Assembly (NCBI GenBank): GCA_025353765.1
Contig: JANXOD010000024.1
Coordinates: 62,001-126,000, forward strand
DNA length: 64,000 nucleotides
Reading direction: 5' to 3'
From: Sphingobacteriales bacterium
GTDB taxonomy: Bacteria > Bacteroidota > Bacteroidia > Sphingobacteriales > Sphingobacteriaceae
Positions 934 to 62,684 of this stretch are shown piece by piece. Made by a program: the position numbers and the translations under genes. The notes beneath the pieces are model-generated. The model had not been told where the DNA came from and ran no database searches. It saw nothing but the letters and a program-made list of their open reading frames with translations. The stretch's first letter is position 1; every line of letters begins with the position of its first letter.

Positions 934-1464
934 ATGAAACTTCTAAAAATTCTTGGGGGCATAGTCATCGTACTTGCTCTTGTTTTCTTCTTAGGCGGCT
1001 TGCTGCTTCCTAAAACTTATTCTATCAGCAGAACTACTGTTATTAACGCTCCCGATAGTACAGTATTTAATAACGTAGCAGATTTTAATAACTTCCTAAA
1101 ATGGAACCCATGGACTAAAATGGAACCCAGTGCAAAAGTTGTAATCACAGGTACTCCTTCACAAACAGGGCATTTATGGCAGTGGGCTGGAAAAGAAACA
1201 GGAAAAGGACAAATGGAAATTGTTGGAGTACAACCAAATTCTGAAATAAATTATAAACTTACATTTACAGAACCCATGCAAAGCGTTGCAAATTGCAATT
1301 TTAATTTCAAGCCTGTAGATGAGGGTACTCAGGTTACATGGAGTATGAATGGTGAAGCTACCAATATGATGGAAAGATGGTTTTTTCTAAATATGGACAA
1401 TATGATGGATAAAGATTTTACAAATGGATTAGGAAATTTAAAACAGCTTTCAGAGACAAAATAG
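934..1464 (+). CDS. SRPBCC (START/Bet v 1-like) family protein with N-terminal membrane anchor
   Basis: A 176-aa protein with one N-terminal hydrophobic helix (about residues 5-26, IVIVLALVFFLGGLLLP) followed by a polyketide-cyclase/SRPBCC domain: ISRTTVINAPDSTVFNNVADFNNFLKWNPWTKMEP is the typical first strand and helices. SRPBCC proteins bind hydrophobic ligands in a deep cavity; the ligand here is unknown. It follows crtI by 57 bp on the same strand, so it may be co-transcribed, and a lipid or carotenoid ligand is possible, but that is inference from position only. A bidirectional terminator follows. Length and architecture match the many single-domain SRPBCC proteins of Bacteroidota. Confidence 0.8.
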   Translation: MKLLKILGGIVIVLALVFFLGGLLLPKTYSISRTTVINAPDSTVFNNVADFNNFLKWNPWTKMEPSAKVVITGTPSQTGHLWQWAGKETGKGQMEIVGVQPNSEINYKLTFTEPMQSVANCNFNFKPVDEGTQVTWSMNGEATNMMERWFFLNMDNMMDKDFTNGLGNLKQLSETK

Positions 1465-1480
1465 TTTTTTGAGATAAAAT

Positions 1481-1513
1481 AAAGAGCGTTTATGTAGACT
1501 CTAAACGCTCTTT
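1481..1513. terminator. Bidirectional terminator
   Basis: A perfect 12-bp stem (AAAGAGCGTTTA at 1481-1492 pairing with TAAACGCTCTTT at 1502-1513) with a 9-nt loop, A-rich before and T-rich after, lies between two convergent genes, the SRPBCC gene and the sigma factor gene. It can serve both strands. Confidence 0.85.
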
Positions 1514-1533
1514 TATTAAATGCAAAACAACAT

Positions 1534-2073
1534 TTAATTTATTTCTTCATAGGTAGGTCTCTTTATTCCATTTTCATAAGGCCTTAAACATTTTTTAAGC
1601 AATTTACGGGCAACATGAATACGTGTTTTAACCGTTCCAATTGGAATTGTTAAATGCTCAGCAATCTCATGATACTTATGTCCCTCAAAATACATGGTAA
1701 AGGGAACATAATATTCATCAGGTAGTTTTCCCAAGGCATTTTTGATATCGTCCATGACAAATTTAGATTCTCCTGCGTTTTTTGTTGAGCTAAAAACCAG
1801 TTTTGACGAAGGAATATCATCGGCTTTTGAAACAAACGAACTTGTTTTAACAAAACGACGATAATTATTGATAAATGTATTTTTCATGATGGTATAAAGC
1901 CATCCTTTAAGATTCGTACCTTCTTTAAACTTGCTGTAGTACGTAATAGCTTTTAGCATTGTATCCTGTACTAAATCATTAGCGTCATCAGCATCATGAG
2001 TAAAATGCAGAGCATACATTTTTAAAGAACTCGCTTGATGCGTTACCATGGTGTTAAATTCGATTTTAGTCAT
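1534..2073 (-). CDS. ECF-type sigma-70 family RNA polymerase sigma factor
   Basis: A 179-aa sigma factor with region 2 (HDADDANDLVQDTMLKAITYYSKF...GWLYTIMKN, core and -10 recognition) and region 4 (LPDEYYVPFTMYFEGHKYHEIAEHL...GTVKTRIHVARKLL, helix-turn-helix). The start chosen is the ATG at 2073 (MTKIEFNTM). The frame stays open upstream for 33 codons, but that part is low-complexity, is encoded by a partly repeated AT-rich stretch and has no sigma homology. No anti-sigma gene is adjacent. Sigma factors of this size commonly sit beside carotenoid genes in this phylum, so a role in light or oxidative-stress response is plausible. TTGTTAA repeats in its leader resemble those upstream of carH. 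Confidence 0.88.
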   Translation of the reverse strand: MTKIEFNTMVTHQASSLKMYALHFTHDADDANDLVQDTMLKAITYYSKFKEGTNLKGWLYTIMKNTFINNYRRFVKTSSFVSKADDIPSSKLVFSSTKNAGESKFVMDDIKNALGKLPDEYYVPFTMYFEGHKYHEIAEHLTIPIGTVKTRIHVARKLLKKCLRPYENGIKRPTYEEIN

Positions 2074-2128
2074 TTTGTTTATACATTGTAGGTAAATACT
2101 AAACAAAGAAGATGTTCTAAAATACTGC

Positions 2129-2150
2129 TTAACAAAATATTGTTTAACAA
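2129..2150. promoter_or_regulatory. TTGTTAA direct repeats upstream of the sigma factor gene
   Basis: On the minus strand the leader of the sigma gene holds two TTGTTAA copies (plus-strand TTAACAA at 2129-2135 and 2144-2150), 15 bp apart, inside an AT-rich stretch about 60 bp upstream of the start. The same heptamer occurs three times upstream of carH. A shared operator is possible; nothing more than the repeat itself is visible. Confidence 0.3.
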
Positions 2151-2275
2151 TACTATAAAATATATTAAACAAAATCTATGCCTTGCTTAGAGCTGTTTTA
2201 AAATAAGCGAAATGGATAGTGTGTAGTTCTTGGATGAATAAGAACTTAAAGAGATAGTTAATAGGATATTATCTT

Positions 2276-3292
2276 TTAGATAATATTTACTTCGCGTTGC
2301 AAAATTATTCCAAAACGCTTTTTGACGTCTTCTATAATTATAATAGAAAGCTTAAATAATTCATTTCCAGTAGCATTGCCATGGTTTACTAAAACTAATG
2401 CTTGATTTTTCCAGGTACCCACATTTCCAATAATTTTACCTTTCCATCCACATTGCTCAATTAACCATCCGGCAGAAATTTTAATATAACCTTCGCTGGC
2501 AGGATAGTGTACAATGTCTGGAAAAGTGGACTCTAACTGTCTAAATTTGTTGACCTCAATAATTGGATTTTTAAAAAAACTTCCGGCGTTACCAATGGCA
2601 GATGGATCGGGCAGTTTACTTACACGAATAAATGAAACAACCTGTGATATATTTTTAACAGTTGGATGAATAATTCCTCTTTTATCCAGCTCTTGCTGAA
2701 TAGCTCCATAACTTGTATTAGGTATGAAAATTTGCGAAAGTTTATAAGTTACTTCTGTAATGATATACTTATTCTTGAATCCCGTTTTAAAAACACTATC
2801 ACGATAGCTGAACTGACAATCGGATTTATCAAAAATTTTGATCAATCCGGTTTCTATTTCAAAAGCATGGCAAGAATAAAAAACATCTTTTAGTTCTACA
2901 CCATAAGCACCAATATTTTGTACAGGTGATGCTCCTACCGAACCCGGTATTAAGCTTAGATTTTCCATGCCCGAAAAACCACTCTGTACACAATAATCAA
3001 CCAAATTATTCCAAACTTCGCCAGCACCGGATTTTACGTAAACTTCATCCTTTGTAATTTGATGTTCAATTCCCTGAATATTCATGCGAATGACCAATCC
3101 ATCAAAGTTAGTAGTAAATAACATATTACTTCCACCACCAAGTATGAGACGATTTTGATTTTGCCATCTTAGATCCGCAAATAATTCTTTCAGATCATCC
3201 TCAGTATTAACCTCAACATACCATCGTGCATAAGCCTCAACTCTAAATGTATTCAGCTTTTTTAAAGAATAATTTTCATGAATTACAAGCAT
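2276..3292 (-). CDS. murB: UDP-N-acetylmuramate dehydrogenase MurB
   Basis: A 338-aa cytoplasmic FAD enzyme that reduces UDP-GlcNAc-enolpyruvate to UDP-MurNAc in peptidoglycan precursor synthesis. Visible signatures are the FAD-binding LILGGGSNMLF, the NLSLIPGSVGASPVQNIGAYG block, the active-site region NAGSFFKNPII, and the C-terminal SAGWLIEQCGWKG. Length and motif order match the type I (E. coli-like) MurB with an inserted YRDSVFK segment. Its start overlaps the 3' end of crtZ by 17 bp on the same strand, so it is probably translated from the crtZ message, an unusual partner for an essential cell-wall gene. Confidence 0.96.
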   Translation of the reverse strand: MLVIHENYSLKKLNTFRVEAYARWYVEVNTEDDLKELFADLRWQNQNRLILGGGSNMLFTTNFDGLVIRMNIQGIEHQITKDEVYVKSGAGEVWNNLVDYCVQSGFSGMENLSLIPGSVGASPVQNIGAYGVELKDVFYSCHAFEIETGLIKIFDKSDCQFSYRDSVFKTGFKNKYIITEVTYKLSQIFIPNTSYGAIQQELDKRGIIHPTVKNISQVVSFIRVSKLPDPSAIGNAGSFFKNPIIEVNKFRQLESTFPDIVHYPASEGYIKISAGWLIEQCGWKGKIIGNVGTWKNQALVLVNHGNATGNELFKLSIIIIEDVKKRFGIILQREVNII

Positions 3293-3767
3293 AGGAATAA
3301 TATGGGAGTTGGTTTTTATAAGTTAGATACTTTTTAAAATGCCTTTTAGAAACCAGTAATAATCCGAATTCCTCTGATGGATTTTTATCTACCGCCTTAT
3401 GATGAATTTTATGTGCCTTGCGAATATTCAACAAGTATGTATTAGATGTTTTAAAGGTTTTTAAACGATTATGTATAAACCAATCATGAAAAATGAAATA
3501 AATAATTCCATATACTGAAATTCCTGTTCCTGTCCAAAATTCTATATTTAATGTTAATCGGCCATCCCACATTAATAAAATAGCAAGGCTTCCAAAAAGT
3601 AAACTAAAAATATCATTCGTTTCAAACCATCCATTTTTTTGCTCATGGTGAGATTTATGTATAAACCATAGAGGGCCATGAAACAGATATTTATGAATAA
3701 ACCAGGAAAAAGCTTCCATTGCTACAAGCGTAAAAAGAATAATGCCGCTATTTATAAAAATTTGCAT
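3276..3767 (-). CDS. crtZ: Beta-carotene 3-hydroxylase CrtZ
   Basis: A 163-aa integral membrane di-iron hydroxylase that adds hydroxyl groups to beta-ionone rings to make zeaxanthin. The histidine clusters of the fatty-acid-hydroxylase superfamily are all present: HKYLFH at 25-30, HKSHH at 37-41, HDWFIH at 94-99 and HKIHH at 119-123. Hydrophobic segments lie near residues 4-23, 55-70 and 78-93. It lies 34 bp downstream of lpdA and overlaps murB by 17 bp, all on the minus strand, so lpdA-crtZ-murB may form one transcript. With crtI at the window edge this indicates zeaxanthin-type or flexirubin-associated carotenoid synthesis. Confidence 0.93.
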   Translation of the reverse strand: MQIFINSGIILFTLVAMEAFSWFIHKYLFHGPLWFIHKSHHEQKNGWFETNDIFSLLFGSLAILLMWDGRLTLNIEFWTGTGISVYGIIYFIFHDWFIHNRLKTFKTSNTYLLNIRKAHKIHHKAVDKNPSEEFGLLLVSKRHFKKYLTYKNQLPYYSYACNS

Positions 3768-32491: not shown

Positions 32492-32847
32492 AAATTATAT
32501 ATTTTAAGAGGTAAAAAATAATGTTTGGGCTTAAAAATTAACTTTTTACTATTAATTTCTTTAAATCAAACCGTAAATATATATACTTATGTAACATATT
32601 TATTACAATTTTTTCATACTTTAAATTTTCAACCTGTCTTTTATAGTAGTACTTGTATTAAAACTAGTTTAGGCAACAACTCTACTACCAATTCACTCTT
32701 ATATCCCCTAACTATTTCCTCTTTCTTAAGTTAACACTAATGTTATATTTAATTTATTATATATTTTTTTTACAATTATTTTTATAAATAAATAAAACAG
32801 TATATATTAGTTCCTGTAAATTTTCATTCACCTTAAATAAGAAAAAC
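32492..32847. other. AT-rich intergenic gap, no gene seen
   Basis: A 356-bp, very AT-rich divergent gap between the 211-aa gene and the duplicated-domain gene. Both strands carry short open frames with start codons but with no recognisable content. It should hold the promoters of both flanking genes; I could not place a convincing TTTG/TAnnTTTG pair. Confidence 0.6.
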
Positions 32848-61986: not shown

Positions 61987-62019
61987 CTCCCTTTGTTGGT
62001 ATTTGACCAACAAAGGGAG
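61987..62019. repeat. Perfect 14-bp hairpin upstream of nnr
   Basis: CTCCCTTTGTTGGT (61987-62000) and its exact complement (62006-62019) with a 5-nt loop lie 19 bp before the nnr start. On the minus strand no T-run follows, so it is not a clean terminator; it may be a 5' leader stem or the 3' end of the lanthipeptide transcript. Confidence 0.7.
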
Positions 62020-62161: not shown

Positions 62162-62347
62162 TTATCCTTTCTTATCTGTATAACATCCGTTACTTCTCCA
62201 ACATACCCCATGTTGCGCACTCGGACAAAGGGTACTATGTTCTGAAAGAGTTCCACCTGCTATTTTAGTCATTTCTTCATTTGATAAATTAAAAATTTTT
62301 CCTTTTTTCAACTGCAATCTTGCAGTATTTAATCTTAAATTTTTCAT
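62162..62347 (-). CDS. Class I lanthipeptide-like RiPP precursor
   Basis: A 61-aa precursor. The leader (1-32) has the Bacteroidota form: short basic start, L-x-L-K-K-x-K-I-x-x-L-S, then LSNEEMTKIAGG, with a double Gly at 31-32 as cleavage site. The predicted core (33-61, TLSEHSTLCPSAQHGVCWRS and 9 more) has three Cys (residues 41, 49, 55) and seven Ser/Thr, enough for three (methyl)lanthionine rings. No dehydratase, cyclase or transporter gene is near in this window; the next gene is a divergent TonB receptor. ATG at 62347 is clear. Confidence 0.78.
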   Translation of the reverse strand: MKNLRLNTARLQLKKGKIFNLSNEEMTKIAGGTLSEHSTLCPSAQHGVCWRSNGCYTDKKG

Positions 62348-62684
62348 AATTATAGCTTTTAGTTAAAAAACACTCCGTACGTAGCTATTGTTTTAGTTTT
62401 AATTTCGTTTATTGTAAATTTATCGTTACATATAAAAACATTATTTCTTCTATATTTCTATCATTTATTGACTTACTATATTCATCATGAACTACTTTTG
62501 GCCTTACTCATATCATAGATCAAGGAAATAAAAAACGTAGTTTTGTAAGGTTAATAGTATAAATTAGAATATAGTAAAGCTGCTTGTTCCATTCAGTTTT
62601 TCTTCTATTATCACCATGCTGTAAAAGCAAACCAGAAAAAATACATCCTATTGAAGAAAAAATTATCGAAATTCTATTTTTAAA
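62348..62684. other. AT-rich divergent gap
   Basis: A 337-bp gap between the lanthipeptide gene and the TonB receptor gene, expected to hold both promoters. An open frame on the minus strand at 62520-62753 runs into the receptor's signal-peptide region and is judged spurious. No -33/-7 pair was convincing. Confidence 0.55.

Follow-up and report, generated by a model that had tools for sequence, protein, structure and literature searches.

In a number of class I lanthipeptide precursors of Bacteroidetes, the leader motif LxLxKx5L replaces FxLD, many such precursors end in GG, and the gene cluster often includes a C39-family protease, according to PMC7268733. Among the prochlorosins and synechococsins, precursor genes may be scattered singly in the genome with the modifying enzyme elsewhere (PMC10783134). 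The gene described here, the stray lanA, shares with the Bacteroidota precursors (PMC7268733; NF038153/NF038158) the leader motif, the GG end, and a core with Cys and Ser/Thr, but differs from them in being unlinked to LanB/LanC, and in a leader that scores slightly below the curated cut-offs. With the prochlorosins it has in common a precursor gene lying away from its predicted enzymes, although prochlorosins and synechococsins use a single class II LanM (ProcM/SyncM), while the system considered here is of class I and has LanB and LanC as two proteins. A limited literature search, which included the accessible parts of PMC7268733, PMC10352776, and PMC12328550, turned up no account of a Bacteroidota class I precursor that is unlinked, and because the search was limited, this absence carries little weight. 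Scattered precursors are already known from the prochlorosins, and the notable feature of the stray lanA is its position.

The window, i.e., the whole stretch of DNA that was analyzed (64,000 nucleotides, C24:62001-126000), comes from a genome of 2.83 Mb in 44 contigs, rated 99.79% complete. Leader type and relatives place this genome in the Bacteroidota; Sphingobacteriaceae is a guess that draws on how large the surveyed family is and on the tree of C39 transporters. The stray lanA occupies window positions 62162..62347 on the minus strand, stop codon included, as an intact ATG ORF for a 61-aa precursor that contains LSNEEMTKIAGG. A sequence-only reading had proposed a lanthipeptide precursor of Bacteroidota type at this position, which is borne out by the intact ORF, the leader motif with GG, and a match within the same genome to a precursor linked to LanB/LanC (p3, the nearest whole-peptide relative; 53% over 57 aa, E 2.7e-13). 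The leader, MKNLRLNTARLQLKKGKIFNLSNEEMTKIAGG, spans 32 codons (62252..62347, minus strand), with LxLxKx5L present as LQLKKGKIFNL at residues 11-21, and terminates in a double glycine at residues 31-32. The core, TLSEHSTLCPSAQHGVCWRSNGCYTDKKG (62165..62251, minus strand), has the 29 residues, three Cys and seven Ser/Thr (4 Ser, 3 Thr) counted earlier, and includes two S/TxxC pairs whose positions match the alignment with p3; STLC and SNGC, with this p3-like spacing, are the candidate rings. Against the leader models, the stray leader scored slightly below both curated NCBIfam cut-offs: 26.4 bits for NF038158 (lant_leader_L1b; E 5.3e-6, cut-off 27) and 20 bits for NF038153 (L1a; E 5.6e-4, cut-off 22). 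Its similarity to TIGR04149, a leader family of rSAM targets, was weak (E 0.032, 14.1 bits, below the cut-off of 25). A Pfam search with the peptide returned zero matches above the Pfam cut-offs, and among window ATG ORFs of 35-129 aa the stray lanA was the sole match to a leader regular expression. Judged by its leader motif, double glycine, core, and p3 match, the gene belongs to the GG-leader type of Bacteroidota class I lanthipeptide precursors; that it is expressed and modified is predicted, as are the ring pattern, the exporter, and the function of the product.

One full-length LanB and one LanC were recovered in a search of the whole genome, both on contig C32. LanB is encoded by a single 1028-aa ORF at C32:83265-86351 (PF04738, E 1.6e-139; PF14028, E 2.5e-62) and LanC by an ORF of 398 aa at C32:88171-89367 (PF05147, E 2.4e-37), which carries WCYGD and CHG, presumably the zinc-site motifs. 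A LanM-type protein was not found, this stand-alone LanC being the sole PF05147 match of the genome. The earlier statement that the window holds no modification enzymes proved correct, as genome matches to PF04738 and PF05147 occurred exclusively on C32, and LanB/LanC profiles gave zero matches over C24:42001-166000 (124 kb, covering the window and loci L054, L002, and L003). Of the two explanations then offered, enzymes lying past the right edge can be dropped, as profile searches showed LanB/LanC to be absent from the 40 kb to the right, while enzymes acting in trans fits, the sole LanB and sole LanC found being located on C32 together with the precursor family of the stray peptide. LanB/LanC and a leader match, the joint lack of which would have spoken against the proposal, are both present. 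The distance from the stray lanA to the cluster is at least about 127 kb (92 kb to the right end of C24 plus 35 kb to the right end of C32), a value that holds if the two contigs adjoin as closely as they can and that assumes sound contigs.

Seven precursor genes, p1-p7, surround the C32 LanB/LanC. Six are intact and have a common leader type, and one, p5, is broken, its start codon gone and its leader frameshifted (L005:7470-7690, minus strand). All of the intact leaders except p4 (p1, p2, p3, p6, and p7) score above both curated cut-offs; p4 is above that of NF038153 alone. The stray lanA is an eighth member of this family. The cluster is of the same kind as the Bacteroidota LxLxKx5L class I systems in PMC7268733, and among the 15 loci scanned, the LanB of Taibaiella chishuiensis was closest to its LanB (best segment at 57%, with coverage of residues 1-1028), with short GG-leader-like ORFs near LanB/LanC, as on C32. 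Adjoining the lan cluster, three genes lie in a row (L005:10920-13489, plus strand, equal to C32:90920-93489), specifying proteins of 262, 243, and 338 aa. The first lacks a Pfam match, the second is an IPPT/IPT-like transferase, and the third is a PF01070 protein that by eye is type-2 IDI-like; together they may form a small set for prenylation or of cytokinin type.

The T. chishuiensis locus has a C39 exporter and HlyD alongside, and a C39 ABC exporter is located near LanB in this and two other related loci (L075, L076, and L086), whereas a search of C32 for PF03412 (C39 peptidase) gave no match. Five PF03412 matches were found in the genome. Two are full-length ABC exporters, of which one stands alone with HlyD on C20 and the other belongs to a grasp-with-spasm RiPP maturation operon of C10; the remaining three matches are in frames of 192-537 aa. 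In a tree of 16 C39 transporters, the C20 protein fell in a clade of four (support 100/99) that includes the exporter beside LanB in Mucilaginibacter endophyticus, and the C10 protein grouped (89/72) with an exporter from one congener, G007, whose frame is shortened and lies near LanB. Since both group with LanB-adjacent exporters, either is possible as the lanthipeptide exporter. The C10 operon (C10:4284-10083; TIGR04192, TIGR04193) has, besides its C39 ABC exporter, an HlyD-like gene behind it, recognized by eye. Two short GG peptides (MENKPNIKFSGIKKML... and MEKKSNMKFSGIKKML...) were also seen near C39-peptidase matches at C6:394883-401980, perhaps another secreted-peptide system.

Within the genus, the stray lanA stands apart. 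The peptide matched none of the 19 other genomes at E 0.001, and a profile of the eight precursors gave one weak match (E 2.7e-4) in a single congener, G011, to an ORF without LxLxKx5L. The flanking genes are widely conserved. To the left is a gene taken here to be NnrD-like, matched in 15 of 19 congeners, and the gene upstream of it was of the same type, presumably UvrA-like from its appearance, in 11 of the 12 congeners read on that side, a reading that left out three with fragmentary NnrD-like matches. To the right, a TonB-type receptor had matches of 69-73% in 13/19 congeners, and in each congener up to 1.5 kb upstream of this receptor was read, where other genes and no precursor-like ORF were found. 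The two conserved blocks do not adjoin in the congeners read, so the stray lanA sits on the block junction, and its location is a lineage-specific junction or rearrangement point.

Other genomes of the family and class were surveyed for precursors away from LanB/LanC. In the family, 33 of 399 genomes, the own genome included, matched the eight-precursor profile in a survey with a ceiling of 15 scored candidates per genome (two in the case of LanB). Among the matches listed, 57 of the 64 from other genomes were within 15 kb of LanB/LanC (4 of the 57, on contig C7 of G393, near LanC alone) and 7 were further than 15 kb from every LanB/LanC located in the survey. At six of these seven, G011 among them, the ORFs that were read all lack LxLxKx5L and were set aside as different families; at the seventh, in G056, no qualifying ORF was found. 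In a class-wide sample, 6/395 genomes (own included) matched p3. One of them, G449, belongs to another family and is 72% complete, and two of its contigs were examined for LanB/LanC: a 70.6-kb contig (C8) with three LxLxKx5L-GG precursors, on which LanB/LanC profiles had no match, and a 12.3-kb contig (C72) with seven GG precursors around two LanCs, on which no LanB was found. By this limited survey, then, the family sample yielded one clear case of a remote precursor, and the class sample yielded another.

Comparison of the stray lanA with its siblings gave different nearest relatives for core and leader. The core alignment with p3 (CPS..CWxSNGC) scored 56, a value reached by 0/5000 shuffles, while the other six cluster cores scored 13-22, reached by 1257-3312 of 5000 shuffles, i.e., at chance level. 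At the first Cys, the stray and p3 cores have STLC and TYPC, respectively, and both have SNGC at the last aligned Cys. The leader DNA was closest to p6 (78 of 96 bases the same, 18 different), followed by p4 with 21 differences and by p1, p2, p3, and p7 with 25-30. A p6-like leader joined to a p3-like core suggests a recombinant of two siblings, although a comparison of 96 leader bases makes this suggestive only.

The region ahead of the gene was also compared with the cluster. The sequence GTAACN7TTACA, initially spotted by eye in the stray and cluster regions together, occurs at 62413..62429 (minus strand), its first base 82 bp ahead of the stray ATG, and at 88 bp in p1, 85 bp in p4 and p6, and 83 bp in p7; by simple arithmetic, a site would fall on that strand and no more than 3 bp to either side with a chance of about 2.7e-4. 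There are 29 such sites genome-wide versus 7 for a reversed control, and as some stand ahead of, or inside, unrelated genes, the element is not lan-specific. It is putatively an operator or promoter element; a further site is at window positions 32591-32607, and sites precede varied genes, including two members of an M[SA]STSETGHAKN family. When the site was defined from the cluster only (GTAACAAANNNNTTACA, up to 2 mismatches), the window gave 6 matches versus 4.86 expected, so that the position alone is notable. Even with E values up to 50 allowed, a profile built from the five promoters of the cluster, with the stray left out, did not pick up the region ahead of the stray lanA. Pairwise alignment of this region was marginal for p4 and p6, with composition-matched controls as good in 18 and 45 of 2000, and not notable for p1, p7, p3, and p2 (241, 387, 142, and 1257 of 2000). 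A common promoter as strong proof of co-regulation was therefore weakened by the cluster-only site count, the miss by the promoter profile, and the sites at unrelated genes, and co-regulation with the C32 precursors is possible. On the other side of the gene, between its stop and the NnrD-like gene, is a hairpin with a 14-bp stem (61987..62019, minus strand; z -6.13), which may be the terminator of the stray lanA; it has no clear U-tract.

Taken together, these data make it fairly probable that the stray lanA is a displaced precursor of the C32 family, modified in trans by the C32 LanB/LanC and exported by a C39 exporter. The C32 LanB, although unlinked, would bind the LxLxKx5L leader and dehydrate Ser/Thr of the core, and the C32 LanC would close thioether rings, S6-C9 and S20-C23 being the likeliest, while C17 might pair with S11. 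Cleavage after GG and export of the product would fall to a C39 peptidase-ABC exporter, the best candidate being C20:245307-247670 with its HlyD partner. That the C32 enzymes really act on the stray peptide is predicted. The main rival, a good deal less probable, is a decaying dispersed copy, i.e., a recombinant with p6-like leader and p3-like core at a rearrangement breakpoint, which has lost expression and modification. Such a fate would suit the lineage-specific junction and the already broken sibling p5, as well as the upstream alignment, in which TATATTTA, common to the cluster promoters, pairs with TACGTACG ahead of the stray lanA. Between the stray and p6 leaders there were 16.5 nonsynonymous changes over 77.8 sites (pN 0.21) and 1.5 synonymous changes over 18.2 sites (pS 0.08), a pattern that resembles relaxed constraint and speaks against function, whereas p6 and p7 are strongly constrained, with 4 nonsynonymous and 13 synonymous changes (pN 0.05, pS 0.74). 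Because pN is below pS against the five other intact leaders of the cluster (p7, p2, p3, p1, and p4; pN 0.19-0.24, pS 0.30-0.70), the neutral look is confined to the p6 pair and its 18 synonymous sites, and shared AT-rich codons may lower pS in that pair.

Also against decay, the ORF is open, the recognition motif and GG are intact, the SxxC spacings are retained, and GTAACN7TTACA is at the right distance. Motif retention was rare under drift: when 18 random changes were introduced into the p6 leader (20,000 runs for each of three mutation biases), only 0.10%, 0.03%, and 0.04% of runs were free of stops with M1, LxLxKx5L, EEM, and GG intact, as in the stray leader. Of 16 positions, chosen by eye, at which the six intact leaders of the cluster agree, 3 are changed in the stray leader, and 3-5% of stop-free runs had as few; overall BLOSUM similarity was unremarkable, with 7-17% of stop-free runs equally good. 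The divergence at these 3 positions speaks against modification in trans, as do the leader scores under both curated cut-offs, the miss by the promoter profile, the marginal upstream similarity, and the presence of the GTAACN7TTACA site at unrelated genes. As the motif list was set after the stray leader had been seen, and p6 is not the ancestor of the stray, this is moderate evidence that leader recognition has been kept. Positions of recognition kept better than under drift might suit an unmodified leader-peptide decoy or regulator, such as a competitive LanB ligand tuning the cluster, but the p3-like pattern of Cys and Ser/Thr in the core would be unneeded by a decoy, and this reading is the least probable of all. 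Scarcely more probable is that the peptide is a substrate of another RiPP enzyme, e.g., a radical-SAM/SPASM or ATP-grasp maturase; the TIGR04149 match and the GRASP and SPASM maturases with their C39 exporter on C10 point that way, but the match to the LanB-linked precursors, and to the lanthipeptide leader models, is far better.

The reading as a displaced precursor modified in trans leads to a broader and rather doubtful idea, that some Bacteroidota have dispersed combinatorial class I repertoires resembling the prochlorosins, in which one LanB/LanC set serves scattered precursors that arise by joining of leader and core between paralogues and move to rearrangement junctions. If so, such a repertoire would have been caught twice, in the stray lanA and in the triplet of precursors on the 70.6-kb G449 contig. 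Mining restricted to the surroundings of LanB/LanC would miss the stray precursor, and if it is modified in trans, the diversity of class I lanthipeptides in Bacteroidota is undercounted, and the leader needs of an unlinked LanB would become testable on a natural, diverged substrate.
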